Positions 10,808 through 45,896 of a DNA stretch of 46,121 nt are shown here, piece by piece. The translations under genes were made by a program, and so were the position numbers. The stretch lies in IMG/VR virus record IMGVR_UViG_3300033153_005115, positions 1 to 46,121 of that record; one strand, written 5' to 3'. The DNA comes from a virus. The notes beneath the pieces are model-generated. The model was not told the DNA's origin and searched no databases. It was given only the letters and a program-made list of their open reading frames with translations. How positions within the stretch are numbered: the stretch's first letter is position 1; each line of letters starts with the position of its first letter.

Positions 10808-11185
10808 ATGAGTAAAAACAGAGAACATTTCGTAGCATCAATGAAAAGAAAAAATATTAAAGCGTTAGGTGCAATCATCCTAAGAGAAATATTTGGTGAA
10901 GGTGATAAAGCAAATGAGCTTGAAGAGGCAAGTAGACTAACTCCTGCACTGATTGATCGTACTTGTTTGGAAACTAAACCTGTAGTTGAAGAACCACCTG
11001 CTGAAGCACCTGCTGAAACACCTGCTGAAACAAAACCAAAAGGTGATGATGGTTTCAATGATGTGCGTAAAGCGATCAAAAAAGGCAAAGGTAAGAAAGC
11101 ACTAAAGCTTATCAAAGCACATAAAGACAATGGTTCAAGAGGTTCAGTTTTAACAGGTCTTAAAAATCAAGCGTTGGATATGTAA
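10808..11185 (+). CDS. Hypothetical protein with Pro/Ala/Glu linker, 125 aa
   Basis: The 125-aa protein has a helical N-terminal domain (residues 1-55, with KRKNIKALGAIILREIFGEGDKANELEE), a flexible linker of repeated PAE(A/T) units (59-75) and a basic helical C-terminal part (NDVRKAIKKGKGKKALKLIKAHKDN). The start follows AAAGGACTCATTATG. It overlaps the ssDNA-binding protein gene by one base (TAATG), so the two are probably made together; a helper or loader for the ssDNA-binding protein is a reasonable guess, not shown by sequence. Confidence 0.78.
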   Translation: MSKNREHFVASMKRKNIKALGAIILREIFGEGDKANELEEASRLTPALIDRTCLETKPVVEEPPAEAPAETPAETKPKGDDGFNDVRKAIKKGKGKKALKLIKAHKDNGSRGSVLTGLKNQALDM

Positions 11186-11799
11186 TGAGTGAAAAGTTAA
11201 CGGTAGTAGTACCTAATGAAGACAAGTTTGATCCTGCTGAGATACCTTTTGGTGTTGTAACAGGTGAGGGTGTAGACAACTTTGATGGTGATGGTAAGGT
11301 TTACTCATCATCACTCTTGCTTGGTAAAAAAGAAGCAAAGTTCTTTAGAAAAGAAGTGATGGATTTTTGGGAAGACAATAAACCTAAACATGGTGGTGAT
11401 GAGCCTGATAATTGGGATAACATTGTACGCAAGGCTGACAGTGGTGGTTATATTCTTTATGCTAAAACCAACGTTGATTTTGACGGGAAACAAAACATCA
11501 TTGCAATAGTTAACCATGAAGGAACAAAGCTTGATCCTGAAGAGTATGGAACTATGGGTAAAGGTACTAAAGGTAGATTGGCAGTCACTTTCTCTGTATA
11601 TACTCAGGGTAAAAAGAAGTCAGGTGTTTCTATTTTCCTATCAGCAGTGAAGCTCACTGAACATGAACCATATGTTGCAAGTGGCGGTGCAGGTGCATTT
11701 GGATCAGATGATAAAGGGAGTGTGTCAGGCAAAGGTGGCTTTAAAAAAGAGAAGAAAGCTAAAAAAAAAAGAAAAAAAAGTAACAACTCCTCATTATAG
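11185..11799 (+). CDS. Single-stranded DNA-binding protein (DUF2815-like OB fold)
   Basis: The zero-frame product is 204 aa. It has the layout of phage ssDNA-binding proteins of the T7 gp2.5/DUF2815 type: an N-terminal segment ending GDGKVYSSSLLLGKKEAK, a helix with a conserved-looking W-D (MDFWEDNK; DNWDNIVRK), then strands YILYAKTNVDF, NIIAIVN and GRLAVTFSVYTQ...GVSIFLSAVKL, and a Gly/Lys-rich tail. The zero frame ends in Lys/Arg and NNSSL, which is unusual, since these proteins normally end in acidic residues. Shifting frame at the A10 or A8 run (11761-11779) gives an acidic end instead (see the next entry). It probably coats ssDNA for the polymerase and helicase. Confidence 0.8.
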   Translation: MSEKLTVVVPNEDKFDPAEIPFGVVTGEGVDNFDGDGKVYSSSLLLGKKEAKFFRKEVMDFWEDNKPKHGGDEPDNWDNIVRKADSGGYILYAKTNVDFDGKQNIIAIVNHEGTKLDPEEYGTMGKGTKGRLAVTFSVYTQGKKKSGVSIFLSAVKLTEHEPYVASGGAGAFGSDDKGSVSGKGGFKKEKKAKKKRKKSNNSSL

Positions 11800-11848
11800 T
11801 GATAGGTCTATCCCTGAAATAGATGATGAAGACGACATAGCGTTTTAA
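11761..11848 (+). other. Probable +1 frameshift or slippage region giving the SSB acidic tip
   Basis: A10-G-A8 at 11761-11779 lies in the Lys-rich tail of the SSB gene. In the zero frame a stop follows after SNNSSL. In the +1 frame the reading continues through TTPHYSDRSIPEIDDEDDIAF to TAA at 11846-11848, giving a 220-aa protein. The end DDEDDIAF closely matches the acidic tip of bacterial SSBs (DDDIPF type), which recruits partner proteins. Either transcription slippage or ribosomal frameshifting makes the long form, or one A is a sequencing error in a homopolymer. Confidence 0.75.
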
Positions 11849-11856
11849 GTTTCGTG

Positions 11857-11895
11857 AGTCACATTCAGGTGTGACTTGCCAAGCATATGACTTGG
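11857..11895 (+). terminator. Two short hairpins after the SSB tail
   Basis: AGTCACA-ttcagg-TGTGACT (11857-11876) is a perfect 7-bp stem, and CCAAG-catatga-CTTGG (11879-11895) a 5-bp stem. They fill the 60 bp between the end of the extended SSB frame and the next start. Neither has a T tract, so they may act as an RNA stability or attenuation element rather than a full terminator. Confidence 0.45.
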
Positions 11896-27605: not shown

Positions 27606-29366
27606 TTAAGCTCCTGTTGTATTTACTGACAACACAACGTGTGTCTTACTCTTTAGTGACGATGTGTCGATTATGTAGTCACCATCCATTGTTACATATA
27701 TTTTTATGAACCCAAATGCGTCCACCGTTGCACTATCTTCATCTAAATCAGGAAATAAATAATCCAAAGATACCCCGATAGTCTTAACAACTTCTAAACC
27801 AAGTTCTGTTGCAATATCCACATAAATATATTGATCTAAAACACAGGGTATTTTATACTCTAAATCATATTCACAAGTTTCCCCTGTGTTTTCATTTGTA
27901 ACAACCATTATGATCTCGCTGTATGGAATATGATCAAACTCTATATGATGTTTGGTTGCCAACACTTCATAAGAAATCCTTACTTTAGGAAAATACTCTG
28001 TAAATTCAAAGTAATGATCATCACCATCAACTGAAGTGGTATATGCAATATCAACCCCTGCACTTCTAGCACCCAATGATGTTTCAATATCATACCGTGT
28101 TTTATACTTGTATGTACCATCACCAACGGCTTCGAGTGTTACATCTTCAACCGATATATAGTTTTCTGCTGTGCTTGTTTCGTTCCTGAGTATTTGTTCA
28201 TTCTTATTATAGAAGGTAAACTTAGGTACGCCCCCAATAGTCCATAAATCAAAACCTTCATTATAATACATATTGTTAGGTGCAATGCAAGTCATGTCAC
28301 CATCTGTTGCCACATTACTACAATCAGAAGATAAAAAGCCTTGAAACTTTACCACCTGATCCAAATAGTAAATATCAAAACTTACAAATCTACCTATTGG
28401 AGTTACTTTAATATTTGCATACCCTTTATGACAATAAGCGTTGTATACAATTTCCAATGTTCCTCTTTTAAGAGTAGTAAACCATAACGGATTATGCCCT
28501 TGTTCAAAGTTGTAATCATCAATATTTATACCATTTAATGTAATAGTCTTAATGCTTTCAATCGCACCGTTTAGAGTTATCGCATCTTCATCTAACACAT
28601 CATAATTCTCTTTACGCTCAACTACTAATGCACTCAATGGAGAAAGCCCAACTGTGTGTTCAGTAGTTCCATTTGGATTAGGAAAAACAAAGACTTCACC
28701 TGAACATTCATCTACTTCTGTATAGATTTTATTGAGTGAAATTATGTCTGTTGAAGTGTCACCACCATTTTGAATTGTGACATATCCGATACCTTTATTG
28801 TAAACCGAACTAGAATCGCCTACAAAGTCAAAAATATCCTTTTCGTATATTTCTGTGCCTTCATTGTCAATCGCCTTATTTGGCACGATATTGACTGTTC
28901 CACCATCATCATAATACTCTGCTCCGGTAACACTTGCAATATTCAACAAAGCATTAAGCATAGTACCACTTCTCTCGTAACTCCCACCAAAATCTAAGTT
29001 CTCTGCCGTGATGGTTATTGGTATTCCGCTATTAGTTGCATATAAAGCACATAGTTCATGGGAGGTTGTAGCTTCATCAACTACTGTTTCATAAGGGGAG
29101 TATGGCTCTGTGAGTTTTGCTGAATATGTACGAGCTTCAACTCGTATGGAGTTTTTACCAACTTTTGATGTTGAATAAATAAACCCCGTAAAAGTCTTTG
29201 ATCCATAATTAATAACAACTTCTTTTTCTTCAATTATATTTGCTTTGTTATCCATTGTAAAAATAGCAACGTCATAGATGCGATTCATTTCTTCCGATAT
29301 GTTACCTTTATCAAACCTGCTTGTCACATCTGTACCATCTATGCTTATATTAAATAATTGTGTCAA
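27606..29366 (-). CDS. Putative tail hub / baseplate-like protein, 586 aa
   Basis: The gene starts at TTG (29366) with AAGGACAAACTC upstream, overlapping the LamG gene stop (TTGA). Residues 1-190 have the pattern of gp27/late-control-D-type hub domains: FNISIDGTDVTSRFDKGNIS, VVINYGSKTFTGFIYST, RVEARTYSAKLTEPYSPYE, then SGTMLNALLNIASVTGAEYY. The rest is beta-rich with no enzyme motif. Such hubs form the ring at the tail tip below the tape measure and carry the fibres. Position, after the tape measure genes and before fibre genes, agrees. The family call is inferred from the N-terminal pattern. Confidence 0.68.
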   Translation of the reverse strand: MTQLFNISIDGTDVTSRFDKGNISEEMNRIYDVAIFTMDNKANIIEEKEVVINYGSKTFTGFIYSTSKVGKNSIRVEARTYSAKLTEPYSPYETVVDEATTSHELCALYATNSGIPITITAENLDFGGSYERSGTMLNALLNIASVTGAEYYDDGGTVNIVPNKAIDNEGTEIYEKDIFDFVGDSSSVYNKGIGYVTIQNGGDTSTDIISLNKIYTEVDECSGEVFVFPNPNGTTEHTVGLSPLSALVVERKENYDVLDEDAITLNGAIESIKTITLNGINIDDYNFEQGHNPLWFTTLKRGTLEIVYNAYCHKGYANIKVTPIGRFVSFDIYYLDQVVKFQGFLSSDCSNVATDGDMTCIAPNNMYYNEGFDLWTIGGVPKFTFYNKNEQILRNETSTAENYISVEDVTLEAVGDGTYKYKTRYDIETSLGARSAGVDIAYTTSVDGDDHYFEFTEYFPKVRISYEVLATKHHIEFDHIPYSEIIMVVTNENTGETCEYDLEYKIPCVLDQYIYVDIATELGLEVVKTIGVSLDYLFPDLDEDSATVDAFGFIKIYVTMDGDYIIDTSSLKSKTHVVLSVNTTGA

Positions 29367-31189
29367 GAGTTTGTCCTTTTAATAATAGTTGTCGTTTTAG
29401 GTTGCTCTATACTTTGAACAAAACTAAATTTGGTTTCTGCCTGTGCTGATTGTATACTTTGCACGAAAGAGAATAACTTTGTATCTGCAAGGGATAACCC
29501 ACCAACACCTGTTGCAAGTAATTCCAATATTGCATCTGCTCTTGGAGTATTGTGGATAGTAGGGTATGCTGTTGCCAACAATTCAAGAATGGCATCTGCT
29601 CTCGCACCTTCTAAAAGAGTTTCATACAGCTCAATGATCGCTTGTTCTTCTGTGCTTAAACTTCTATTATATTTCCGTACATTTCTAAGAGTACAATTAT
29701 CAAAACCGTTTAAGTCTGCTTCTGTAGTTGTAGTTGAAAATACATCATCTTTCCAATACCATGCTTCAACAAAACCTGTTGCACTTGGAAACGCTATGTC
29801 GTCACCTGTTGGAATGGTTGCTTTCTCACCATCATAAGAAACTCCTGCACTATCGGTTGCATCATACTCATTGTAATAATTGTCTTTTGAGTTGTTTTTA
29901 AGTGGGTAAAACGCTACAAGTCCATCATCAATGTCTATTGAACGGAAGTTATTTTCGTAGTTATAAATATCTTCTCTTTCTTGTGCATCTAATGCTTCAT
30001 CATAAATTCTAACATTCCAAAAGAACCCCTTTAGTTCTCTACCTACATCGTGATTCCATGTACACATTCGCATGTTTGTTTCGACTGATGGACAACCACT
30101 AAATGCCACTGAACCCTCTGCATTGGTGTTTATAAACAGCTTTAAATCTACCCCGTCATAAGTAATAACACAATGCTGTGCTGTATATGTTAAAGATGTT
30201 GTAGAAGATAAAATTAGTGAGCCACCTGAATAAAAGGCTAACTTATCTAATGCTTCTGTTACTGCCCAACCGTTTGCACCGCTACCCCCATCTGATTTAT
30301 CTATAAACCTTTGATAATCGTCACCTGCTAAATCTATCCCAGCCCAAAAAGATATGGAAAAATTACCTGTAAGTTGGAATGGGTGAGCTGTATTAATAGT
30401 TCCTAATTCAATATAATCATTATCTCCATCTGGGTAGCCAATAGAACCACGAACTCCACTTAAATAATAACCCATACCATTTGTTTCAACGCCATCATAC
30501 CCACCAACAATATCCTCTGCTGTACCTGTGAGTGGGTAATGTGCAATTAAGTTTGTTGTGGTTGGTGCTGTGAGTGGTTTTGGATAGTACCCCTCATCGT
30601 ATATTTCTGTTCTAGCTGTTGCATCTTTTGCATCTGTATATACTCTAACATTTGACATAACGCCATCTATATAGTGTTCTGCCAAAGCACCTGAATATCT
30701 AGTACCAAAGTTTAATACCTCTGTACCCAAGTCATAAGTAAGTGTTCCGCTTGCAACACTACTTCCATTATTGATGTAGATATTTGCACTTTTATTATCA
30801 ACTACAATTTGTATATTGTAAAGGGTGTCTGTTGTAATTAACCCTGTGGCACTTCCTACAAGTGTACCCCAATCTGAACCATTACCCACATAAAGCTTTA
30901 TATCCCCTGCTGAGTACACCGTAACGGTCAAATGCTTATCTTCTGCACTTGAACCTAATGGTGTGGAGTAAGTGCCTATTGTATTAAACTTAACCCAAAA
31001 ACTTAATGTGTATGTATGTCCAAGAGCTATAACAGGTGTCTGAATCATATTGGTGCTTGTATCATCAAAGTTTGCAACATCACCTTTAAAGGTTGCACCA
31101 AAATATGCTACTGCATCATAAGAACCATGACAATCATCTGTATTATTATTCAGTAAATAATGGGCTACGAGGTTATCAGTTAATGCCAT
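29363..31189 (-). CDS. LamG-domain receptor-binding protein, 608 aa
   Basis: Two clear concanavalin/LamG-type jelly rolls, about residues 5-205 (LVAHYLLNNNTDDCHGSYDA; TYTLSFWVKFNTIG; NVRVYTDAKDATARTEIYDE) and 215-410 (LIAHYPLTGTAEDIVGGYDG; FSISFWAGIDLAG; NVRIYDEALDAQEREDIYN), plus a shortened third copy at about 420-525 (LVAFYPLKNNSKDNYYNEYD). The tail (530-608) has two tandem duplications: RADAILELLAT twice and FSFVQSI twice. LamG domains bind sugars, so this is a likely fibre or adhesin. It overlaps its neighbours at both ends. Confidence 0.85.
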   Translation of the reverse strand: MALTDNLVAHYLLNNNTDDCHGSYDAVAYFGATFKGDVANFDDTSTNMIQTPVIALGHTYTLSFWVKFNTIGTYSTPLGSSAEDKHLTVTVYSAGDIKLYVGNGSDWGTLVGSATGLITTDTLYNIQIVVDNKSANIYINNGSSVASGTLTYDLGTEVLNFGTRYSGALAEHYIDGVMSNVRVYTDAKDATARTEIYDEGYYPKPLTAPTTTNLIAHYPLTGTAEDIVGGYDGVETNGMGYYLSGVRGSIGYPDGDNDYIELGTINTAHPFQLTGNFSISFWAGIDLAGDDYQRFIDKSDGGSGANGWAVTEALDKLAFYSGGSLILSSTTSLTYTAQHCVITYDGVDLKLFINTNAEGSVAFSGCPSVETNMRMCTWNHDVGRELKGFFWNVRIYDEALDAQEREDIYNYENNFRSIDIDDGLVAFYPLKNNSKDNYYNEYDATDSAGVSYDGEKATIPTGDDIAFPSATGFVEAWYWKDDVFSTTTTEADLNGFDNCTLRNVRKYNRSLSTEEQAIIELYETLLEGARADAILELLATAYPTIHNTPRADAILELLATGVGGLSLADTKLFSFVQSIQSAQAETKFSFVQSIEQPKTTTIIKRTNS

Positions 31190-31593
31190 TACTTAGCCGT
31201 TACAGTTAATGATCCTATTTCCCATGTAAACGCTTGGGTGTCTAGGTTTGTGATAGGAGAACCCAATGCGACAACAACTTCCATGTCAGCAACGCCCTCA
31301 ACATCTGCTAACATATACCCAATATGAGTTACAGGAAGCCAATCCCCTGATGCTGTGTCATGGGTTAATGTTGCCGTGTTTGATGTGACTCCATCCGTTC
31401 CTGTGTTTGCTGAAAATATGTCTGTAAGCAATGCTCTTGCATATCCATTTCCTGATAGTTCATTTGTAACCAACCCTGCATCTGTTGGATCTGCTGAAAA
31501 TAGTGCAATGCTCATAGTTGCAGATAAATCACTCGTAACCCCTGTTACTGCATCGAGTTCTCGATTTTCATGTGCGTTAGTCATGTTTGACAT
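31189..31593 (-). CDS. Tail fibre-type small protein, 134 aa
   Basis: The 134-aa protein has the layout of a common phage structural family: MSIALFSADPTDAGLVTNELSGNGYARALL (residues 27-56), then TSNTATLTHDTASGDWLPVTHIGYML and an ending with short strands (QAFTWEIGSLTVTAK). From memory this is the Gp80-like family often found beside tail fibres. AAGGATTTAATATG supports the start. It lies between two small tail genes and the LamG gene. Confidence 0.75.
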   Translation of the reverse strand: MSNMTNAHENRELDAVTGVTSDLSATMSIALFSADPTDAGLVTNELSGNGYARALLTDIFSANTGTDGVTSNTATLTHDTASGDWLPVTHIGYMLADVEGVADMEVVVALGSPITNLDTQAFTWEIGSLTVTAK

Positions 31594-31602
31594 ATTAAAT
31601 CC

Positions 31603-32004
31603 TTAATAAATTGTTTTAACATCAGCACGATTGTATGCTTCTGTTTTTGTTGAAGATGTTGGAACATCAACCTGAACCCAAAACGACTTGTGTCCACTTG
31701 CAGGGATAACAACGGCTATTGGACTTTCATCTACCTCTGAACCTGTAAGATCACCAACCACCTGTGCATCACCTGTACTTTCAAACAAGATTGATGTAAA
31801 CACCGTTGAAGTGCTTAATGACAATGATGAAATAGCCACATCCGTTGCACCTGAATTTGCGATGTAAAACTTCCGTGAAATAGTTGCACCGGAACTTTGG
31901 TTCGCCAAACTTATTTCAGGTAATACTTCATTTACCACACCTGATGATATTTCATCACCAATCGCACCACCAAGATCGCTTACTGCTTTATGATATGTAA
32001 TCAT
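31603..32004 (-). CDS. Hypothetical tail protein, Ig-like, 133 aa
   Basis: The 133-aa protein looks like one beta-sandwich: ISRKFYIANSGATDVAISSLSLS (44-66), FTSILFESTGDAQVVGDL and SPIAVVIPASGHKSFWVQVDVP (96-117). This resembles Ig-like or CARDB-type domains that decorate tails. It starts one base after the stop of the 123-aa gene (AAGGTTTCATAAATG). Exact function unknown. Confidence 0.75.
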   Translation of the reverse strand: MITYHKAVSDLGGAIGDEISSGVVNEVLPEISLANQSSGATISRKFYIANSGATDVAISSLSLSTSTVFTSILFESTGDAQVVGDLTGSEVDESPIAVVIPASGHKSFWVQVDVPTSSTKTEAYNRADVKTIY

Positions 32005-32376
32005 TTATGAAACCTTCGCTAGTGGTATTATAACATTATAATAACAAGCACCTAAAGACGTTTCAGCATAAACGGGTTGTTTCTCATGTGCCGTCCTTAC
32101 TGTATCAGTAGTATCATCATCATATGTAATTGTTATAGAGGTTATATCACCCCAAATAGCCTTTAAAGCACTCACATTAGCCTCATTAAGCCAACCGCTG
32201 TCTGAACGTGTTTCAAGCGTTATATACGGTGTGTGTATGTCTGCTGAATATGCAATGTGCGTACCATCAGCACTCATTATCATTTCACCCATTAATTCAT
32301 TAGGTTCATTGAATTCTTTTACAAACAATGGTTTATAAAGAACAATGTCACCAATCTTTTTAACTTTTTTAGTCAT
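32005..32376 (-). CDS. Hypothetical tail protein following the tape measure, 123 aa
   Basis: The 123-aa protein directly follows the tape measure gene (stop TAA then ATG) with GGGGGTGA as start site. It is beta-rich: DIVLYKPLFVKEFNEPNELMG, HIAYSADIHTPYITLETRSD, ITSITITYDDDTTDTVRT, CYYNVIIPLAKVS. Proteins at this position (lambda gpM/distal tail) cap or complete the tail tip, so a distal tail protein is possible, but its length and sequence do not identify it. Confidence 0.75.
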   Translation of the reverse strand: MTKKVKKIGDIVLYKPLFVKEFNEPNELMGEMIMSADGTHIAYSADIHTPYITLETRSDSGWLNEANVSALKAIWGDITSITITYDDDTTDTVRTAHEKQPVYAETSLGACYYNVIIPLAKVS

Positions 32377-35300
32377 TTATTCACCCCCATAAGTATTTAA
32401 ACCCATTTGCAATGCTTCCATTACTTGCTCAGGAGACATTTGAGCAGAAACACTACTACCCCCAAAGTTAATGGTCACAGGTTGCATTTGTAATTGCGGT
32501 GCTATGTTTGAAACAGATGCACCAACCCGACCACCATCAGCATAACCCATTGGTTTTTGATATTTCATGCTATTTATAGCATATAGTAAACCTGCACCAT
32601 AAGCATCAACTGCTTCACGCTTAACAACAAACTCACCACCGGTTAATTTAGCGTTCACACTGTCGCTGTCAGTTGGATCATAACCGGCAACCATGCCTGA
32701 ACCAACAAATGAACCACCCCCTGCTAAATGCTGAGGTATATAACCACCACCTGAAGCATGATAGTTGGTGTAAACATCAATACTTGCTGATTGTTGATTA
32801 ATCCAAGATACTATATTATTTACAGAAACAACAACGGGGTCTGTGTTTGAATCTGTATCAAACTCAGGTGTTTGGCTTTCTGTATAATTAACCACATCAT
32901 TTACAGATACTTTAGCGTTTTCTGTAGTTACCATCATGTCCGCTGTGATAATTTCTTTTTCAAGTTTCAGTTTTAACTGATCAATCTTATCTAGTTTTGG
33001 CTCATACTCAACCTCTGCCGTTATATCTTTGTTTTCAATCTCTTTTTCAGTATCTTTTAATGAATCACCATCAACTTCTACTTTTGCTTTAAAGGTTGGA
33101 ACATATCTATCTTCCATTGCTTTAATTTGAGCTTCAAAGTCACTTGTTTCAGGTGCTTCAATCTTTGCTTTAATGTTTATCTCAGCACCACTTGCTTCAG
33201 CTATGAGATCACGTAGTTGTTTTTTAGCTGTATCAAAAACTTTAATGCTGTCAAAATCCCCAATCTTACCTGCCCAAACCTTAGCCATGTTTTCTATAGA
33301 CTTAGCCAACGCTTCCTGTGACTCAATTTGAGCTAAGACAGCTTTCAACTCCATCTGAACAAACTTCATTTTTTCAGCATTTGCTTCAATTTCAGCTTGT
33401 TTTTTCTTCTCTAACACAGCCCCTTCACCGGCTTTAGTTAATTTATAGATCTTCTCAGCTTCAGTAAATGTCTGCTTAGAAGAGGCTAAGACTTTTTTAT
33501 TATCACCAACTACTTCGTTTGCAAAAGAAGATGAGAATCCCCCCATTTCTCTAAACGTATTCTTAGTGGCATCTTTCTTTTTCTTCTCTTGTTCAATGAC
33601 AGTTCCGGCAAAGGACGTAGCTAACGATTTAGCTTCACCATAATACCTACTTGCCTCATCAATATTACCTTTTTCCAATGCTTGATTAGCTTTTGTTATT
33701 AACTCTGTGGCTCTTTGTTTATCAGCTAAGTATTTTTCATGTTCGCCCAAATCTTTTGTGCGTGCATTGTAAAGTAATTTGTCATATTCTTCATTTAAAC
33801 TTGCTCTTTTATCAGCATAGTCTTTAAAAATATCAAGTTTGTCTTGTTCTAACGTTTTAACTTTATCACGTAACTTTTCTTCTTTTTTCTCTAACTTGTC
33901 AATAACTTTAGCAACTGCACTATATCTTTTTTGAGCAAAGGTTTCAAACTTACCATAATTTTTTAAAGCATCTTCAGTTACTTCATTGAGAACAATCTGT
34001 TTGTTTGTTATTTCCTCTATGAGTTTGGATTCTTTTTCCCAAGACCCCCCGATCTTAACTAATTGTGCATCCAATGATTCAATTTGCATACGCAAGGTTT
34101 CTTTTTTATCAGCAAACTGTTGAGTAGTTAATGACCCTTGTTTTAAAACCCTTTCCTCTTCACGTAACTTTGATAAAACACTCGCCACACTTGATGCTAA
34201 TCTAGCTCTTTCATAATTTGATTTACCAATAGCACCGGTTTCACGATCTGTCGCATCTACTATTAAATTAACTGTTTTTGAAAAACTTTTACCACGCTCT
34301 GTTTCTAATTCTAGTTGTTTCTTAATTGCCCTGCTTTGATTTTCAATGGCATCTGTGTAGAAAAGTGTTAAAGCAATGACACCCGCTAAACCTGCATAAA
34401 CAGGGTTCATCATCAATGTTGCAAACATTGCCCGTAATTCTTTACCCATCAACTTTAATGCAACACCCAATATACCAACACCTTTAGCAAGGTTTTGATT
34501 ATCTTGTAACATACCAACTGAAACACTAGCTAAAGAACTCATCACCGATGTTAGGGTGGTTATTGATTCAACAACAAACCCAATACTCTCAGCAAAGTCA
34601 TAAATAGCATCGTCATCCATCCCTCTTACCATTTCAGTCCATGAACCCAACATTGTCCGTAAAGCCGGTGTAAGCTCACTCATTATCTTGATTGCAAGAC
34701 CTTCCAATGCTGAAGTGAGGTTTTTATATGACCCAATTAAGGTATCAACCATTTCTTTTGCAGAAGTTGTAGCAAAGTCATTAACCATAGCTGTTTCAAT
34801 TTCTTTGATCTTTTCAAGCAATTTATCGTAATTATTGGTAAGTGCAATGGCGGATGCGGATGCCTCAGAACCAAATATTTGTGAGAGCTTAATGTTTCGT
34901 GCTTTCTCACTCATGCCTGAAAGCCTCTCACTAACTATTGACAACTGCTTTGTAAATGGTAAGAGGTTATTATTTGCATCATACATACTAATACCAAGCT
35001 CATCAAGGTATTTGAGTGCTTCCTTGTTACCTGCCAAACGTTGCATTACAATTTTAAGTTGAGTACCGGCTTCTGTTCCACGCCTACCTGCATCGGCTAG
35101 AATACCTAACGCACCCGCTGTTTGAGCAAGGGTTACGTTATAAGCATTTGCCACTTGACCAACTTTAGAGAGTGCTTGACCCAACTGAGTAACATTCGTT
35201 GCAGATATTGTTGAAGCTTTCGCCAAAGCATCTGTAATATCACCAATATCTTTAGATTCGAGATTAAACGCTTTCATAGAAGTAACAGCAAAATCAGATG

Positions 35301-35778
35301 CCGTTTTAAGATCTAACATACCCACTTGTGCAAGGTTTAAAATGTCACCAATACCATCGAGCATTTCACCGGATTTAAGACCGGCAAGAGCCATTTCATT
35401 CATCCCTTCAGCTACTTGTGATGCTGAGAATACTGTTGATTCACCCAACTCTTTAGCTTTGGTTTCAAGTTCCTCTAGTTCTACTGCTGTAGTTCCTGAA
35501 AAAACACCAAGCTTCTTAATTGATTCTTCAAATTTGGCTGTAATAACTGTGCTTGTGAGTAAAGTGTGAAATGATCCATAGATCAATGCTAATTTGGAAA
35601 CGTGTGCAGTAAGTGACTTAAAACTACGTGTCATTTGACCAACTTGACCAACATTGGCACGACCACCCCTAGCGATAGTCTTATTCATTTTGTCAATGTC
35701 ACGGGTGAGTTTTTTTATTTCCCTTGAAGCATCTGCTGAGACAGCATCAATTTTTATCTGAATATCAGTATCAGTCAT
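32377..35778 (-). CDS. Tail tape measure protein, 1133 aa
   Basis: The 1133-aa protein has an N-terminal coiled coil (residues 1-70). The TP901-type tape measure core follows at about 85-310, with STVFSASQVAEGMNEMALAG, LNLAQVGMLDLKTASDFAV, ITDALAKASTISATNVTQLG and ADAGRRGTEAGTQLKIVMQR. After it comes a hydrophobic stretch (VYAGLAGVIALTLFY, about 455-470), long charged coiled coils (500-860) and a Gly-rich C-terminal part (ASGGGYIPQHLAGGGSF). It sets tail length and helps DNA pass the membrane. At roughly 1.5 angstrom per residue it predicts a tail near 170 nm, an estimate only. AAGGTGGATTATG gives a strong start. Confidence 0.93.
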   Translation of the reverse strand: MTDTDIQIKIDAVSADASREIKKLTRDIDKMNKTIARGGRANVGQVGQMTRSFKSLTAHVSKLALIYGSFHTLLTSTVITAKFEESIKKLGVFSGTTAVELEELETKAKELGESTVFSASQVAEGMNEMALAGLKSGEMLDGIGDILNLAQVGMLDLKTASDFAVTSMKAFNLESKDIGDITDALAKASTISATNVTQLGQALSKVGQVANAYNVTLAQTAGALGILADAGRRGTEAGTQLKIVMQRLAGNKEALKYLDELGISMYDANNNLLPFTKQLSIVSERLSGMSEKARNIKLSQIFGSEASASAIALTNNYDKLLEKIKEIETAMVNDFATTSAKEMVDTLIGSYKNLTSALEGLAIKIMSELTPALRTMLGSWTEMVRGMDDDAIYDFAESIGFVVESITTLTSVMSSLASVSVGMLQDNQNLAKGVGILGVALKLMGKELRAMFATLMMNPVYAGLAGVIALTLFYTDAIENQSRAIKKQLELETERGKSFSKTVNLIVDATDRETGAIGKSNYERARLASSVASVLSKLREEERVLKQGSLTTQQFADKKETLRMQIESLDAQLVKIGGSWEKESKLIEEITNKQIVLNEVTEDALKNYGKFETFAQKRYSAVAKVIDKLEKKEEKLRDKVKTLEQDKLDIFKDYADKRASLNEEYDKLLYNARTKDLGEHEKYLADKQRATELITKANQALEKGNIDEASRYYGEAKSLATSFAGTVIEQEKKKKDATKNTFREMGGFSSSFANEVVGDNKKVLASSKQTFTEAEKIYKLTKAGEGAVLEKKKQAEIEANAEKMKFVQMELKAVLAQIESQEALAKSIENMAKVWAGKIGDFDSIKVFDTAKKQLRDLIAEASGAEINIKAKIEAPETSDFEAQIKAMEDRYVPTFKAKVEVDGDSLKDTEKEIENKDITAEVEYEPKLDKIDQLKLKLEKEIITADMMVTTENAKVSVNDVVNYTESQTPEFDTDSNTDPVVVSVNNIVSWINQQSASIDVYTNYHASGGGYIPQHLAGGGSFVGSGMVAGYDPTDSDSVNAKLTGGEFVVKREAVDAYGAGLLYAINSMKYQKPMGYADGGRVGASVSNIAPQLQMQPVTINFGGSSVSAQMSPEQVMEALQMGLNTYGGE

Positions 35779-35805
35779 AATCCACCTTTTTCAATATTAA
35801 TCAAT

Positions 35806-35814
35806 ATTATATCA
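35806..35814 (-). promoter_or_regulatory. Extended -10 before the tape measure gene
   Basis: TGATATAAT on the minus strand, 28 bp upstream of the tape measure start and overlapping the end of the chaperone frame. The same TGATATAAT occurs at 40463 and 42192. No good -35, but an ATTAATATT half-site follows. Confidence 0.45.
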
Positions 35815-36383
35815 TAGTTTCTTACTTAACATAGCAAGATTGGATTCGTGGTCACTGACCTTATCTTGTTTCTTCTTTTTATCAAAGAGCTTTAAAAACT
35901 CTTCAAGCTTCTCTGATTTTGACCCTCTTGTAGCAATGGCATTGTGTTGGATGGCTTCACGCTTCTCATCTTCTATCTGTTCAAGTGCTATGTAGAAGAA
36001 TGACACACCATACGTGTATGCCTCAGAATGTCCGTGTTTTATAAGCGTTGCAACATCACTTAGGAGTTTTTTTTTGACTCTTCTATCTCTTCTTTGGTTG
36101 GTTCTTTATATGTGCCGTCTTTTATAAGTTTTTCCAACTCTTCCCTTGCATTTGGATAGGTCAGATCAATCACCTCTTCATAAAGAGCAGTGACGGTGTT
36201 TTGACCAAGCTTATTGATCTGTTCTTGTGTGAGTCCGGCATTGAGTAACCCATTCATAGGAGTATCATATAATTGATCCTCATTACATTCTACTCGATAT
36301 TCTTGTGTCAATTCAGTGATTGTTATCTCACCACCCAACGCTTCAACATCAACAGTCATTTTCTTTATAGGAAACTTTTTCAA
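35812..36383 (-). CDS. Tail assembly chaperone frameshift product (G-T type), 190 aa
   Basis: A -1 frameshift at the A9 run (36067-36075) joins the 107-aa G-like protein to a second frame. That frame is open from the slip site (KLLSDVATLIKHGHSEAYTY) through FFYIALEQIEDEKREAIQHN to a Lys-rich end, stopping at 35812. The fusion is 190 aa. The arrangement, with tail tube upstream and tape measure downstream, is that of lambda gpG/gpGT, where the fusion binds both tape measure and tube subunits. The lower frame has no ribosome binding site of its own, so the stretch 35812-36006 should not be read as a separate gene. Confidence 0.85.
36060..36383 (-). CDS. Tail assembly chaperone, G-like, 107 aa
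   Basis: The zero-frame product. I keep the TTG start at 36383, since AAAGG precedes it at good spacing; an ATG 24 bp later (MTVDVEALGGE) is the alternative. The protein is acidic and helical (EYRVECNEDQLYDTPMNGLL; TQEQINKLGQNTVTALYEEVIDL) and ends in EEIEESKKNS at a slippery A9 run. Made in excess over the fusion, it would coat the tape measure during tail assembly. Confidence 0.83.
   Translation of the reverse strand: MKKFPIKKMTVDVEALGGEITITELTQEYRVECNEDQLYDTPMNGLLNAGLTQEQINKLGQNTVTALYEEVIDLTYPNAREELEKLIKDGTYKEPTKEEIEESKKNS
36067..36075 (-). other. Slippery A9 run for -1 frameshift
   Basis: The minus strand reads GAG TCA AAA AAA AAC TCC TAA in the zero frame. An A-only slippery heptamer lets tRNA-Lys re-pair in the -1 frame, and the stop two codons later is bypassed. 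The same slip could occur during transcription. Confidence 0.8.
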
Positions 36384-36413
36384 CTTAATACCTTTATAAT
36401 AAATTCAAGAAGT

Positions 36414-36433
36414 CTCCCTCAATAAAGAGGGAG
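36414..36433 (-). terminator. Hairpin after the tail tube gene
   Basis: CTCCCTC-tttatt-GAGGGAG on the minus strand, a perfect 7-bp GC-rich stem just after the tail tube stop, followed by ACTTCTTGAATTTATT. It may partly terminate transcription, or protect the 3' end of the abundant tube mRNA. Confidence 0.6.
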
Positions 36434-36440
36434 TTTGGAA

Positions 36441-37226
36441 TTAACACTCAGAAGAGTCTAATTCAACAATGTCAAGATAATCTGACATTACACCGTTATC
36501 AACAGAGTCAACCATAGCTGAACCTGAGAATGACAGTTTACCGATTTCTTCACCTTTAAGCATGAACTCACCGTCTTGTGTAACAGATACATTTTTAAAG
36601 ATGTATTTGTAGTTGTTACCTGTCTGTGAGCTTGTGATCACAACAAATCTACCTAGCAATGCTGAATTTTTCATTGTTGCTGAAGTATTCATTGTAATAG
36701 CCGGTGCAGTTACAGTTAAGTGAAGAATATCACCTGTTGTAATAGCCCCACCGTCAGCCAATGGAATGATCGTAATATACCCCGATTTAGCATCGAAAGT
36801 GTAATCATCACCCAAGACATATTCTATTGCGTCTGTCTCATCTTCAACTACAAGGATTGTTGTATTATAATAACCACAATCAACAATAGATCCTTCTTTA
36901 ACCAACGCACCTGCAACTACTATTGCTTCTGCTGTAGCAATAATTTGATCAGTAGCTATAACATTACCTAAGAACGCTTTGTTTTGCATTTCAAGCGTGA
37001 TCTCAGAGGTGTCAAATTTGATCTCTGCTGACTTTTTAGAAGGATATTTTGCATCCAAAAGTGGAGTACAACCCTCAGAGTTAAAATGCTCTTTCCATTC
37101 TACTGTTGTAGCAAAGGAAATACCATCAGTCTTACCAAAATACATGATTGGTTCATAAGAGCCATCACCATTTAGCTTTTGGTAGTAAAGTTTACCACCA
37201 CCTGTAAAAATACTAGATTTAGCCAT
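36441..37226 (-). CDS. Major tail tube protein, 261 aa
   Basis: The 261-aa protein fits a major tail protein in position and composition: N-terminal FTGGGKLYYQKLNGDGSYEPIMYFGKTDGIS, then EWKEHFNSEGCTPLLDAKYP and AEIKFDTSEITLEMQN. A domain insertion at about 95-185 (DCGYYNTTILVVEDETDAIE...GDILHLTVTAP) may be an Ig-like decoration, and it ends KNVSVTQDGEFMLKGEEIGKL. It forms the tube through which DNA passes. GAAGGTATAGAATTATG supports the start, and a hairpin follows. Confidence 0.85.
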   Translation of the reverse strand: MAKSSIFTGGGKLYYQKLNGDGSYEPIMYFGKTDGISFATTVEWKEHFNSEGCTPLLDAKYPSKKSAEIKFDTSEITLEMQNKAFLGNVIATDQIIATAEAIVVAGALVKEGSIVDCGYYNTTILVVEDETDAIEYVLGDDYTFDAKSGYITIIPLADGGAITTGDILHLTVTAPAITMNTSATMKNSALLGRFVVITSSQTGNNYKYIFKNVSVTQDGEFMLKGEEIGKLSFSGSAMVDSVDNGVMSDYLDIVELDSSEC

Positions 37227-37230
37227 AATT

Positions 37231-37548
37231 CTATACCTTCATTAAATTTGGGGAAATGTCTGCTTCAACAAAGATATAATCAACTGCAAAATTCCCATCT
37301 TGAATATTAATGTCTGACTTTAGAAACCTAAATGCCATACCATCCATAGACGATGCTTTGATAACCTTATTGATAAGTGCTTCATTGCCCTCTTTTGTTT
37401 GGATCACAAATGTGACCTGTCTCTGTAAAGATCGTGATTTCTGTTCTCTAAAAGCCACAAAAACAAAAGGTGCTTCATCGGTTTCTTTTGCAAGTCCTAA
37501 CAATATCTCTTTTACTTCTGCTTCTGTACAGTACATCGTGTCACTCAT
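37231..37548 (-). CDS. Putative tail terminator (U-like), 105 aa
   Basis: The 105-aa protein lies directly before the tail tube gene, the lambda gpU position. It has a helical N-terminal segment (CTEAEVKEILLGLAKE) and strands FVFVAFREQKSR, VTFVIQTK and FAVDYIFVEADIS. Sequence alone does not identify it as gpU; the order of genes does most of the work. A tail terminator caps the tube and joins the head. AGGTAAAGAAATG starts it. Confidence 0.6.
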   Translation of the reverse strand: MSDTMYCTEAEVKEILLGLAKETDEAPFVFVAFREQKSRSLQRQVTFVIQTKEGNEALINKVIKASSMDGMAFRFLKSDINIQDGNFAVDYIFVEADISPNLMKV

Positions 37549-37552
37549 TTCT

Positions 37553-37855
37553 TTACCTCATCGCTTTCTGTAATATGACTTGCATAAGCAAGTTCTCTTC
37601 ATCCGGTCTAAAATCAATGATACCATATTTTATAGTATCAATCAAGAAAGAACCATCTTTTGAGATATTTGGAAGATCCTCTTTTTTAAAAATTATCTTC
37701 CTCATCATTGAATCACCAAGCTCACTCTCTTGATCAAAAAATTGAACAGTGACTTTAGTTGACCTTGTACCAAGATAATATTTCACCTCTTGTGCAAATT
37801 CATCAGTATTAAAGAACACTTCTAAATCTGCTTTAATGTGTTCTTTAAAATTCAT
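37553..37855 (-). CDS. Head-tail joining protein (FII-like), 100 aa
   Basis: The 100-aa protein has the small beta-barrel look of lambda gpFII and related attachment proteins: helix FKEHIKADLEVFFNTDEFAQEV, strands KVTVQFFDQ, RKIIFKKEDLP, IDTIKYGIIDFRPDEENLLMQVILQ. It is in the expected place between head and tail genes. There is no strong ribosome binding site. It joins the neck to the tail. Confidence 0.65.
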   Translation of the reverse strand: MNFKEHIKADLEVFFNTDEFAQEVKYYLGTRSTKVTVQFFDQESELGDSMMRKIIFKKEDLPNISKDGSFLIDTIKYGIIDFRPDEENLLMQVILQKAMR

Positions 37856-37861
37856 ATGTCA

Positions 37862-38056
37862 CTACTTTTTTGTTTCTTTTTTAGCTTTAGGCTTTTTCTT
37901 TACTTCAGCTTTCTTCACGGTGGGTGTAGGACTCTCAACAGAACTAAGCCTTTGTAACTCCTTTGCTTCTTCATCTGAGAACAGATTAGAAGTATCACCC
38001 TTCCCGAAACGACCTTTGCTTGTGAGCGTAGTTGCAATAAACTTAACTTTAGCCAT
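37862..38056 (-). CDS. Small head-region protein, 64 aa (FI-like position)
   Basis: The 64-aa protein starts AKVKFIATTLTSKGRFGKGD, then has a short acidic segment (LFSDEEAKELQRL) and a basic Lys-rich tail (KKAEVKKKPKAKKETKK). TAGGAGCATAAGATG is a good start. It sits after the decoration-like protein, where lambda has FI. A similar short N-terminal pattern occurs in small phage head proteins, but no family is certain. The basic tail could contact DNA. Confidence 0.65.
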   Translation of the reverse strand: MAKVKFIATTLTSKGRFGKGDTSNLFSDEEAKELQRLSSVESPTPTVKKAEVKKKPKAKKETKK

Positions 38057-38057
38057 C

Positions 38058-38396
38058 TTATGCTCCTAGTTTTACGTTTACTGTTCCTGCTACTGCACCT
38101 GCTTTTTCTGTTACCGCATAACCGATAATTTGGTTATCCGTTAAAGTGGTTGTAGCTTCAATACCACCGACATTATCAAGATAGATTTTATCACCAAGTG
38201 CGATTGTATTCGCTGTTACTGCTGTGAACTGAAACACACCTTCAATTTGAAGTGCTACATCACCACCTGAAACAACGTCTGCTGATGCAATACCAACTCT
38301 TACACCGAAATCAATCGGATCACCTACATTATAGTCTGCATCTGCAACGATATTTACAACGTCACCTAATTGAACTTTAACTGCTGTTTTAGCCAT
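38058..38396 (-). CDS. Capsid decoration protein, DUF2190-like, 112 aa
   Basis: The 112-aa protein fits DUF2190 capsid-decorating proteins: KVQLGDVVNIVADADYNVGD (residues 7-26), then DPIDFGVRVGIASADVVSGGDVALQIEG split over the next strands, FQFTAVTANTIALGDKIYLD and IIGYAVTEKAGAVAGTVNVKL. All of it is short beta strands with alternating Val, Gly and Ala. It would trimerise on the capsid surface, as lambda gpD does. It lies directly after the major capsid gene. Confidence 0.82.
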   Translation of the reverse strand: MAKTAVKVQLGDVVNIVADADYNVGDPIDFGVRVGIASADVVSGGDVALQIEGVFQFTAVTANTIALGDKIYLDNVGGIEATTTLTDNQIIGYAVTEKAGAVAGTVNVKLGA

Positions 38397-38426
38397 TTTT
38401 TATCCTTTTAAAAATATATTTAAGAA

Positions 38427-38442
38427 TGAGTCAAAAGACTCA
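38427..38442 (-). terminator. Hairpin after the major capsid gene
   Basis: TGAGTC-tttt-GACTCA on the minus strand, a perfect 6-bp stem followed by TTCTTAAATATATTTTTA. Placed just 8 bp after the capsid stop, it may partly terminate transcription or stabilise the capsid mRNA. Confidence 0.55.
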
Positions 38443-38449
38443 CTCAAAC

Positions 38450-39850
38450 TTACACGTTACCTTGATAGATACCACGATAGTCTTGTGCCATAACACCAAA
38501 GTCAAAGATACCTTCAAATGAAGTGTTTGACAATGCGTTTCTGTCAACTTGAAGTAATGGTCTACGACCTGTACCTGCAAGATAACCTGCCTTGATAGTT
38601 CTTTTGTTTGCAGTTAAATACCATTCCGTACCTGTAAGCTCACCTGAAACAATCGGTTGAACGATGTTTGCATATGGGTTAACCACACCTGAGTTTTTCT
38701 CAGAAACCGTACTTGACATAGATCCAAGTAACACTCTTGCTTTTTTAGCAAGTTCAACAGGAATATGTAAGTATGCCGGAGAGATATTCGCTCTTGTATT
38801 AGCATTTGCTAACAAGTGACTACCCATAGCAAGAATACCTGCTTCTAGTGCCGAACCTGCTTCATCAAACGCATCTGTTGCAAGGTTGCTGTGATCTGCG
38901 TGAAGGATTGATTTCCCATCAGCCATTAAGTAACCTGCACCTGACCCTTGTTTTCTAAGTAGGTCATAAACCATACCGTTTGCCAAGTTTCCTGAACGCT
39001 CTGTAAGGTTATTGATCATACCTGTAAACGCATTTAAATCGTCATTGATAATCATCTTACGAGTGACTGTAAACTTGTTACCGTAAGTATCAATAAACCA
39101 TCTTTCAGCACCTTCACCGATTTCAACTTCTTTTAACTCGCCATTTTCAAGCACTTTGTCAAGTTTACCACCTGCTGTCTGTGTTGTAATGTCTGTGTTT
39201 TCTCTGAAGTCTCTAACGTCTTCCTCTTGAATCCATTGCTTATATGTATGTTCTTCAGCATCAAAGTCTGCAATGATTTTTCTGTTACCTGCTTCTAGTA
39301 ATAGAAGTGGGAAGTCAGATGTACTCATAGCTCTGTTTGCAACATCCATAGTTGACATAGCATAGTTTGCTGTATCACCTGTAATTGCTCTTGCAATATC
39401 AGAGAAACCTGCTGATCTAAATTTATTATCTTTAAGGTCAACTGCAACACCCATTCTACTTGCAACTACATCTTCAAGTTGACGCACCATAGCTTCTCTG
39501 TTTGGAGTAGTGCCAACTCTGATAGACTCAGTTTCTTTTGCCTTAGCATCAAGTATCGCTCTTGCAAAGGTGTGAGCCGTTTGTGTTTTATCACCAACTG
39601 CTAAATCACGAACCTCATCACTAGCACTGTAAAGTGTAGCCATGTCTTTGATCTCTGCAACTCTTTTAAGCTCTGCATTTTCAGTTTTCATCAGTTCAAA
39701 AGCTTTTCTATCAGCTTCATCTTTGTCTGCTCTGAGCTTATCTTCTTTAGCAATGTCAGCACGTACTTGTGTAAGGTCTGATTCTTGCTCTACCGTTCTC
39801 TTCTCTTTAGCAATCGCTTCAAGCTTTGCTAATCTCTCTTTTAGTGTCAT
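38450..39850 (-). CDS. Major capsid protein (HK97-fold, gpT-like), 466 aa
   Basis: The 466-aa protein has an N-terminal coiled coil of about 70 residues (TLKERLAKLEAIAKEKRTVE to AELKRVAEI). This probably acts as a built-in scaffold (delta domain) removed by the S78 protease. The mature part is of the Mu gpT / HK97-fold type: FSDIARAITGD, STSDFPLLLLEAGNRK, EEHTYKQWIQEEDVRDFREN, FTVTRKMIINDDLNAFTGM, KSILHADHSNLA and TGTEWYLTANKRT. CAAGGAGTAGAACATG starts it. No separate scaffold gene is seen, which agrees with a fused one. Confidence 0.88.
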   Translation of the reverse strand: MTLKERLAKLEAIAKEKRTVEQESDLTQVRADIAKEDKLRADKDEADRKAFELMKTENAELKRVAEIKDMATLYSASDEVRDLAVGDKTQTAHTFARAILDAKAKETESIRVGTTPNREAMVRQLEDVVASRMGVAVDLKDNKFRSAGFSDIARAITGDTANYAMSTMDVANRAMSTSDFPLLLLEAGNRKIIADFDAEEHTYKQWIQEEDVRDFRENTDITTQTAGGKLDKVLENGELKEVEIGEGAERWFIDTYGNKFTVTRKMIINDDLNAFTGMINNLTERSGNLANGMVYDLLRKQGSGAGYLMADGKSILHADHSNLATDAFDEAGSALEAGILAMGSHLLANANTRANISPAYLHIPVELAKKARVLLGSMSSTVSEKNSGVVNPYANIVQPIVSGELTGTEWYLTANKRTIKAGYLAGTGRRPLLQVDRNALSNTSFEGIFDFGVMAQDYRGIYQGNV

Positions 39851-39853
39851 GTT

Positions 39854-40444
39854 CTACTCCTTGTGTGAAATACCATAAAAGGCTTCAAGTTCTTCAACTC
39901 TTGCCAACACTTCTGATTCATCTTCTAAGAAGATCACCTCACGCTTCTTTGCACCCTTATCGAAACCTATACCAACTGCTGATAATTCAAAAATTTCATA
40001 GTCAATAATGGTAACGAGATCCGGTTCACCGTCACGTTCTTCCACCTCGTATTTGTTAATCTGATAACCAATAGATACATCTGTGAGAATATTCTCTGTA
40101 TATTTACGATAGATATTTTGCTCATCTACCCCTGATCCAAACCAAACATCACTCACGATAGTGCCACCATCCACACGTGTTTCTTCAATCCGACCAATGG
40201 CACTATCTATATCACGATTGTGATTTTTGAAGAATGTTCTAAGGCTTTCAAATGAAGCACCTTCAATGCTAAGTTCCTCAACATAGGACTCACCGGAATA
40301 CCAATCATAACGCATACCACCGTTATCTTCTGAAACAATAGTAAATGTGTGGGTATTTGGTTTATCTTCTGTAGATGGATTCTTCAACCTAACAGTTGCC
40401 TGTCTGTAATGAACCTCACCTAAGAGGGCATTTCGCTTTTCCAT
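39854..40444 (-). CDS. Prohead maturation protease (S78-like)
   Basis: The 196-aa protein has the S78 pattern: LRTFFKNHNRDIDSAIGRIE with catalytic-like H75, and TDVSIGYQINKYEVEE with S124, in an alpha/beta domain that begins LGEVHYRQATVRL. It would cut the delta domain of the capsid protein during head maturation. It sits directly before the capsid gene and has its own leftward promoter at 40463-40490. TAGGAGTAAAGGAATATTATG is a strong start. Confidence 0.85.
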   Translation of the reverse strand: MEKRNALLGEVHYRQATVRLKNPSTEDKPNTHTFTIVSEDNGGMRYDWYSGESYVEELSIEGASFESLRTFFKNHNRDIDSAIGRIEETRVDGGTIVSDVWFGSGVDEQNIYRKYTENILTDVSIGYQINKYEVEERDGEPDLVTIIDYEIFELSAVGIGFDKGAKKREVIFLEDESEVLARVEELEAFYGISHKE

Positions 40445-40462
40445 AATATTCCTTTACTCCTA

Positions 40463-40490
40463 ATTATATCATATTATTTAATATAATCAA
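40463..40490 (-). promoter_or_regulatory. Leftward late promoter with palindromic spacer (protease/capsid)
   Basis: On the minus strand, TTGATT (40490-40485), 16-bp spacer ATATTAAATAATATGA, TATAAT (40468-40463), with TG-n before the -10. The spacer contains the palindrome ATATTA-aa-TAATAT. The start of the protease gene is 19 bp downstream. Its -35 overlaps the end of the portal gene. Confidence 0.72.
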
Positions 40491-41944
40491 GACTGTCTAT
40501 TTTGAGCTTCTAATTGTTCAAGCCTCTCACCAAGTTCTTCTATCATGATTCTAGCATCTGCCATATCCTGAGTAGGAGAGGTATTATCTTTAGTTTCCGG
40601 TTCAACCCACAATCCATGTTCTTTCAATAGTTCCATTTCATGTTTCTTCTGCAATAAGATCTCTTCAAAGTCTTTACCCTGAGCCATTGCCTCATCCGTT
40701 TGAGTAGTGAGGTTCATAGCAATCTCTTTTTCAGTGGCTAATAGGTCTTTAAGAGGGTCAACCCATGAACGTTTAGGTTTAATCCATTTTTGTTTTAAGA
40801 ACTCTGTCTTATCTGTCATGAATTTAACAGCCGGTATTTTAATCATCCCTCTTAATATCTCAACTTCTAACCAAGTAGAGTAAATATCATTAAGAACATA
40901 CGATATAAAATGTTTTTGTTCAGCATCAAAACGATAGTTGTCTTGAATCAAAGAGGCTCTTGATGAAGCAAAGTTCACTTTAGAGTAATCTTTAAACGCC
41001 AATTCATATGACACCCTACGTGCTGTAGCGATTAACCGGATAGTGGTTTCTGTAAAAGCTTTATAATCATCAGATGCCCCTTGCGGTGCTTGTTTATCAA
41101 TGGATTCACCCTTTTGTAGATAATACACCATCAAGCCGTTGATCTCTTGTAATTTCAAGTCCTCTTTAGTAACACCGGTAGATGAAGGATCAAGGTCTGC
41201 TTTGACTGTGTATGCAATGGAAGCTCTTGCCCTTGCACCCATGATGGTTGCTGATTGGAAGCCTGAGAAATTCTTTATATCAATAATAGATTGTTTATAC
41301 TCACTAACACCACGATCTTGTGAAAATCTCTCTGTTTTATAGTAGTTTATAATGTATTCAGCCGGTATTGACATAGTTTGGCTTGTATAATTACCATTTT
41401 CATCAGCCACTTTAAAGCGATATGCCTTGATTTTACCATCAGGAGTTTTCTCTACACCGTTATCTTCACCACCATCTAAGGCATCGGCTTCAATAACCTG
41501 TAACTGCAACCCTTCCTTAGTGAATCGTTTGTAAATATAAACCTCACCATCAACCATACGAGTACCTAAAAGCACACGCTGAATATCAGCAAAGTTCATT
41601 TTACCCATGCTGTCACATAAGAGTTTATCCTCTGACCATATTTTCCAACGTCTTTCTATATCATCATCAAGTTTCTTCTTACCAATCCTACTTTGCAGTG
41701 TGATACCTTGACCAATAACATTGTCAACAATAGCACCGTCAATATTAGCCATGATTGGGTTATTTGCAAAGAGCCATCTTGCCCTTGCCCTAAGTGTGTC
41801 TCTATCTACTGTAGCTGTTTGTTCAAAACTGCTGTTAGCGTTCCAAAAATCACGGTTGGCATCTGTCTTTTTACCACCTTCATAGAAAGCCCGTGTTTTT
41901 GGTTGAGGAAAAAACCAATCTTTTATTCTTTGTAATCTACCCAA
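40487..41944 (-). CDS. Portal protein, lambda type
   Basis: A 485-aa lambda-type portal (Phage_portal_2 family). Typical segments are RARWLFANNPIMANIDGAIV, VDNVIGQGITLQSRIG, FADIQRVLLGTRMVDGEVYI, LQVIEADALD, IPAEYIINYYKTER, DRGVSEYKQSII and SYELAFKDYSKVNFASSRAS. It forms the dodecameric channel at the packaging vertex. The start is TTG at 41944 after GGAGTAAGTT, overlapping the gpW-like gene by 8 bp. The C-terminus ends in a coiled coil (MIEELGERLEQLEAQ). Confidence 0.92.
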   Translation of the reverse strand: MGRLQRIKDWFFPQPKTRAFYEGGKKTDANRDFWNANSSFEQTATVDRDTLRARARWLFANNPIMANIDGAIVDNVIGQGITLQSRIGKKKLDDDIERRWKIWSEDKLLCDSMGKMNFADIQRVLLGTRMVDGEVYIYKRFTKEGLQLQVIEADALDGGEDNGVEKTPDGKIKAYRFKVADENGNYTSQTMSIPAEYIINYYKTERFSQDRGVSEYKQSIIDIKNFSGFQSATIMGARARASIAYTVKADLDPSSTGVTKEDLKLQEINGLMVYYLQKGESIDKQAPQGASDDYKAFTETTIRLIATARRVSYELAFKDYSKVNFASSRASLIQDNYRFDAEQKHFISYVLNDIYSTWLEVEILRGMIKIPAVKFMTDKTEFLKQKWIKPKRSWVDPLKDLLATEKEIAMNLTTQTDEAMAQGKDFEEILLQKKHEMELLKEHGLWVEPETKDNTSPTQDMADARIMIEELGERLEQLEAQNRQS

Positions 41945-42173
41945 AACTTACTCCAAATGCTCTACCTGTACGTGCTGTCCTATTAGGAAGAACATCACCA
42001 TACTTATCTAAATTAGCTTGTGCATCTTTCTCCATGCCACGTAGCTGTTCAAGGTCTGCTCTCCAAAAGACACGCCCACCTAATTCATAGCGTTGACCAC
42101 CTTCCATAATAGTTGTTATACCTGTTTGTATCTGAGCTAATTTCTCACCATACGTTAATAACTGCACTGCCAT
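41937..42173 (-). CDS. gpW-like head-tail joining protein, 78 aa
   Basis: The 78-aa protein has a typical gpW pattern: LAQIQTGITTIMEGGQRYEL (residues 11-30), GGRVFWRADLEQLRGMEKDA and a basic tail. In lambda, gpW seals the packaged head below the portal. Its place before the portal gene agrees. AAAAGGATTTCTATG is the start site and a strong leftward promoter lies 19 bp upstream. Confidence 0.82.
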   Translation of the reverse strand: MAVQLLTYGEKLAQIQTGITTIMEGGQRYELGGRVFWRADLEQLRGMEKDAQANLDKYGDVLPNRTARTGRAFGVSFG

Positions 42174-42191
42174 AGAAATCCTTTTAGCACT

Positions 42192-42219: not shown

Positions 42220-42243
42220 TGGTGATGGTTTTAAGATATATTA

Positions 42244-42263: not shown

Positions 42264-42285
42264 TTTAAAAATTAAAGGAGTTAAA

Positions 42286-45881: not shown

Positions 45882-45896
45882 TCAATTCCTTCTTAT

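Follow-up and report, generated by a model that had tools for sequence, protein, structure and literature searches.

How does the single-stranded DNA-binding protein (SSB) of this phage come to have an acidic C-terminal tip in a reading frame other than its own? The window, the whole stretch of 46,121 bases analysed here (an IMG/VR record), is a tailed-phage genome or a large fragment of one. The zero frame of its SSB gene ends in the basic sequence KKKRKKSNNSSL and is without an acidic C-terminal tail, which only the shifted frame supplies: the +1 frame across an A10-G-A8 tract is open as far as 11848 and ends in VTTPHYSDRSIPEIDDEDDIAF, the final residues being EIDDEDDIAF. Both ends had been noted in the original prediction and both are confirmed. 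The features of the locus are as follows.

11185-11799, plus strand: predicted gp2.5-type ssDNA-binding protein, zero frame, 204 residues, with the lysine-rich C-terminus KKEKKAKKKRKKSNNSSL
11761-11779, plus strand: A10-G-A8 tract (A10 at 11761-11770, G at 11771, A8 at 11772-11779)
11774-11780, plus strand: A_AAA_AAG heptamer with TAA (11781-11783) directly after it, one base out of phase as assembled
11780-11848, plus strand: frameshifted tail resembling a bacterial SSB C-terminal tip (SSB-Ct), VTTPHYSDRSIPEIDDEDDIAF and a stop, homologous to the -1 frame tail of the relative L037
11788-11832, plus strand: weak stem-loop, 7-10 nt past the heptamer (-8.8 kcal/mol, z -0.6, alone not significant)
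11854-11879, plus strand: hairpin GTGAGTCACATTCAGGTGTGACTTGC just 3' of the tail stop, with a near-identical copy after the SSB gene of the relative G002
Tail peptide of the shifted SSB frame: SIPEIDDEDDIAF

The gene at 11185-11799 is assigned to the gp2.5-type SSBs by profile searches and a structural model. The protein alone found no match in Pfam; it matches the profile of phrog_112 (Gp2.5-like SSB) with an E-value of 8e-8, and a profile of the window SSB with its relatives (alignment A7) matches T7 gp2.5 (1je5) in the PDB with an E-value of 9.8e-9. The OB-fold core of the AlphaFold2 model (mean pLDDT 66) matches 4jg2, 1je5, 5odj and 4klk in Foldseek (E-values of 3e-6 to 2e-5, with TM-scores of only about 0.4), the partners being T7 gp2.5, the Enc34 SSB and DUF2815 proteins.

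The A10 at 11761-11770 is the longest homopolymer of the window. Lysine codons in the window favour AAA (396, versus 216 AAG), so that the A10-G-A8 run is by itself unremarkable. The tip is not. The six frames of the window contain 2,490 segments that end in a stop and have ten or more residues, and the tip alone among them combines a final Phe with six or more acidic residues in its last ten positions; the same pattern occurred in none of the approximately 185,000 segments of 60 Markov-simulated windows. The acidic tip is therefore coding sequence, present or very recent, and not a product of chance. A separate small gene for the +1 open reading frame (11663-11848) was considered and rejected: its first 39 codons are the SSB gene read out of frame.

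Three relatives of the SSB locus were compared. G002 (47,727 bases) was reached through the window capsid protein (72% identical) and L035 and L037 through profile searches; single-sequence searches with the polymerase and helicase gave no relatives, with the tail alone as query, tblastn found nothing among phages and no near-identical copy of the SSB region was found among the phages or viral contigs searched. In all three the SSB gene lies among the replication-region genes that surround it in the window, the SSBs are 34-39% identical to the window protein (L037 about 36%) and a lysine-rich stretch ends the zero frame. The original prediction had the shift restoring an acidic tip; the lysine-tailed zero frames of L037 and G002 instead make the basic end the conserved zero-frame end.

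In L037 (DAOVWR010000024.1, one metagenomic contig with about ninefold coverage) the zero frame ends in KKSKKDKKKKKKK at AAG AAA AAA AAG TAA (A8-G-TAA), and the -1 frame continues as VKRPYEKVYSGMRHNPIPEIDIDEDEIPF to a stop, its terminal part being NPIPEIDIDEDEIPF. The shifted frames thus both close with an SSB-Ct-type end, an acidic stretch followed by hydrophobic-x-F at the C-terminus (EIDDEDDIAF in the window, EIDIDEDEIPF in L037). As BLASTP did not align the two short tails, they were compared by Smith-Waterman alignment against shuffled sequences, and their score of 43 was reached by none of 5000 shuffles. The 13 alignable codons contain five substitutions, four of them at third positions when read in the tail frame, and the tails differ in length by 3 and 18 nt. 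This third-position bias and these triplet-length indels, though a small sample, imply selection on the translated tail frame in both lineages.

Among the sequences compared, only these two have an out-of-frame acidic tail. G002 has A_AAA_AAG-TAG in its zero frame and no acidic tip in its -1 frame, which gives only VGRYPYH and a stop, with a possible remnant, DMNTIPC and a stop, beyond. As to conservation of the run among homologues, a point raised by the original prediction, L037 and G002 share the heptamer in the zero frame. L035 has no out-of-frame tip; its acidic stretch is internal and is followed by the lysine-rich zero-frame end. Twelve more distant SSB relatives (L009-L020) have C-terminal regions that are mostly acidic, lie in the zero frame and often end in PRL, and none of the twelve has an out-of-frame tip. 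One of them (L018, 3550-3690) has two tandem copies of IDEGEELDLSSATPIPDTAEDDV at its SSB C-terminus, so that the acidic tail is internally duplicated. Separately, the 26-nt hairpin beyond the SSB gene, GTGAGTCACATT[C/G]AGGTGTGACTTGC, is nearly identical at window positions 11854-11879 and after the SSB gene of G002 (L030, 2097-2122), although the two SSB proteins are only about 38% identical; it is present as a single copy within the window and an Rfam search gave no match.

The sequence at which the frames part is a known one. dnaX shifts at A_AAA_AAG, one of the sequences most prone to shifting in Escherichia coli (PMC5009743), and at bacterial -1 sites the stimulatory structures generally begin 5-8 nt downstream (PMC4066793). 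The stem-loop of L037 starts 5 nt after the heptamer with a z-score of -5.9, and it exceeds in stability every other window among the 940 sampled on the L037 locus. Because it unites A_AAA_AAG, an immediate zero-frame stop, a 5-nt spacer and a strong stem-loop, the L037 signal is, judged by its anatomy, a canonical -1 programmed ribosomal frameshift signal. In G002 a hairpin of moderate strength starts 6 nt after the heptamer, where the tract is only A6. The weak stem-loop of the window occupies the same place as the very stable stem of L037; a two-sequence RNAalifold prediction on a hand alignment did not recover the long stem, and covariation is not claimed. No upstream Shine-Dalgarno-like stimulator was seen.

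The window differs from its relatives in phase. The sequence G-A8-GTAA is common to the window and L037, and the distance from the GCT codon (the last non-lysine codon) to GTA is 19 nt in the window versus 20 nt in both L037 and G002. Because its tract is one base shorter than this spacing, a -1 shift on the assembled window sequence ends immediately, and the tail can be reached only by a +1 or -2 shift or by RNA-polymerase slippage. Where the original prediction suspected one A too many, L037 and G002 point to a -1 shift at A_AAA_AAG and to a window tract that is one A short; from the phase of the relatives, one A too few is the likeliest discrepancy. Three readings of the tract remain: an assembly undercount by one, a genuine A10 with polymerase slippage, or length variation in the population. 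An independent contig reproduces A8-A9 runs from other parts of the window exactly, which speaks for good homopolymer accuracy, the A10 itself lying outside that comparison.

Our preferred explanation is recoding at the 3' end of the SSB gene, in L037 by a canonical -1 ribosomal frameshift, which probably adds a host-mimicking tip to part of the SSB. Against this stand the window phase, one base off that of L037 and G002, the poor z-score of the window stem (-0.6), the lack of an acidic tip in G002, the small number of out-of-frame acidic tails (two, with L037 a single contig of about ninefold coverage) and the failure to see an upstream Shine-Dalgarno-like stimulator. The first two are what transcriptional slippage alone would accommodate without postulating an error: RNA polymerase would gain or lose an A on the A10 and A8 runs, and the mixed mRNAs would yield a basic end, a K-stop end and a tipped end with no need for a ribosomal signal. 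Both runs are within slippage range (An with n>7 is cited, and dnaX uses either mechanism; PMC3711429). Yet A8 is short for efficient slippage, the G002 heptamer is in phase with only A6 and L037 has a near-ideal, correctly spaced ribosomal signal, so that we regard slippage as the sole source of these products as rather unlikely.

The original prediction offered a single homopolymer error as its alternative, with a true gene having one A fewer and a continuous frame that runs through the basic stretch into the acidic tip. Indels are indeed likeliest at homopolymers of ten. As an account of the whole arrangement this serves poorly, since L037, from another sample and another assembly, also needs a frameshift, and in a different direction, so that two different errors would be required. 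The 20-nt spacing of L037 and G002 is farther from continuity (18 nt) than the 19 nt of the window, and the A8-A9 runs elsewhere in the window that an independent contig reproduces also speak against it. Of the readings, a continuous frame with one A fewer fits the relatives least well, and we consider such an error improbable. It is very improbable that the tail survives as a relic, the tip having once been continuous until a frameshift severed it in this lineage and its synthesis ceased. The apparently decayed, non-acidic version in the same frame of G002 (VGRYPYH, stop, DMNTIPC, stop) and the zero-frame acidic tails of more distant relatives would suit such a history. The third-position bias and triplet-length indels between the window and L037 speak against it, as they imply that the frame of the tail is under selection in each lineage, and the tip still closely matches host tips.

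These probable host tips are those of the Campylobacterota, whose SSB ends are commonly IPEIDIDEDEIPF-like (for example IPSIDIDDEEIPF, VPVIDINDEEIPF and IPEINIDDDEIPF). The last 13 residues of the L037 tail, IPEIDIDEDEIPF, are identical to the SSB end of one Campylobacterota (L061) and close to most of the 29 Campylobacterota SSB ends compared. The window tip, IPEIDDEDDIAF, is close to the same motif, with Ala replacing the usual Pro before the last Phe. The description of the tip as bacterial-type is thus borne out in the exact motif, but not in acidity as such, an acidic C-terminus being characteristic of T7-type phage SSBs as well (PMC5686142). Capsid relatives of the window, 30-40% identical, were present in five of 397 Campylobacterota genomes. 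On the strength of the tip matches and these capsid relatives, a Campylobacterota host is likely for both the window phage and the L037 phage. The bin that holds L037 is assigned to the Mycoplasmatota; a host there is doubted, as the bin's own SSB ends in TPTIDVAEDDLPF, unlike the tail, and the contig may be misbinned in this Mycoplasmatota MAG.

Under the recoding that we favour, some ribosomes would terminate after the lysine-rich tail, while others would switch frame on the A-tract and add approximately 22-29 residues, acidic and ending in Phe, that copy the SSB tip of a Campylobacterota host. In the window this could be the same -1 shift, acting on molecules with one extra A (owing to an undercount, to tract variation or to RNA-polymerase slippage); alternatively, slippage could drop one A. 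The two isoforms of the original prediction, one with the basic end and one with the basic stretch plus the acidic tip, are still the best reading, and the L037 tail is conserved out of frame; the shifting itself, its rate, the expression of both forms and their functions are what we infer. The untipped form would coat ssDNA and, with its basic tail, would be expected to bind DNA more strongly and less selectively, because removal of the Enc34 tail allowed that SSB to bind dsDNA (PMC5686142). The tipped form would bind DNA non-specifically more weakly and would recruit the replication and repair proteins of the host that bind SSB; many partners are recruited by bacterial SSB tips (PMC7145534). 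That programmed frameshifting sets the ratio of basic-tailed SSB to the host-mimicking form, and so draws host proteins to phage ssDNA, is a proposal that we hold at about even chances.

Other A-runs of the window resemble frameshift sites. A probable tail-chaperone G/GT frameshift lies on the minus strand (36383-35780), with an A9 at 36075-36067: the zero frame of the gene at 36383-36060 ends ESKKNS just after the A9, and the -1 frame goes on as KKKLLSDVATL (KKKLLSDVATLIKHGHSEAYTYGVSFFYIA). The site is upstream of the tape measure gene, a position and layout as in G/GT frameshifts, and its A9 is reproduced in an independent contig; the window phage thus seems also to use A9 slippage in this candidate tail-chaperone gene. 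The contig IMGVR_UViG_3300033155_000933 aligns to window positions 29179-45898 with three mismatches; a single gap leaves it 18 nt shorter, so that the two nearly identical phages differ by a small indel of triplet length. An A8 run also lies close to the end of a putative DNA methyltransferase gene (42286-43302, with a weak match to PF01555), in which an in-phase A_AAA_AAG precedes the stop by 16 nt.

Taken singly, frameshifting, T7-type SSBs and SSB tips are known; their combination was not found in the literature searched: no published report of a frameshifted phage SSB was found, and the main text of a survey of recoded prokaryotic genes (PMC3711429) does not mention SSB. Engineered tail mutants are the usual means of studying how the number and stoichiometry of SSB tails control the recruitment of partners; if the proposal is right, a gene whose one mRNA yields both tipped and untipped SSB would be a ready natural system for this question. 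The SSB would then join dnaX as a second replication protein with forms set by an A-tract frameshift, and the phage would have taken over a docking motif of its host, placed on another family of SSB. As such SSB genes are annotated at present, the tip is missed.

Several known systems share parts of this arrangement. T7 gp2.5 and Enc34 ORF6 have the same fold and sequence family and an acidic C-terminus, but known T7-type SSBs encode it in the zero frame (PMC5686142), which in the window ends in the lysine tail, the tip being out of frame. The Campylobacterota SSB-Ct is matched by L037, exactly in the case of one SSB, and closely by the window, whereas the phage tip is placed on a gp2.5-type SSB and out of frame. 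The tail assembly chaperones G/GT of tailed phages are likewise phage proteins extended by a -1 frameshift, apparently also in the window phage at the A9, but theirs is a structural gene with another role and no docking motif. In dnaX of Thermus and Chlorobium an A-tract of similar length (A9-A10) gives two forms (PMC3711429) by a transcriptional mechanism, which for the window SSB is only a possibility. E. coli dnaX has the same heptamer, a close stop and a downstream stem, which in L037 and G002 lies 5-6 nt on, and yields two C-terminal forms of a replication protein. It differs in having a Shine-Dalgarno-like stimulator, of which none was seen in the SSB genes, and in phase, the window being one base out as assembled; and the dnaX shift gives a shorter product, whereas the SSB shift would give a longer one with a docking tip.
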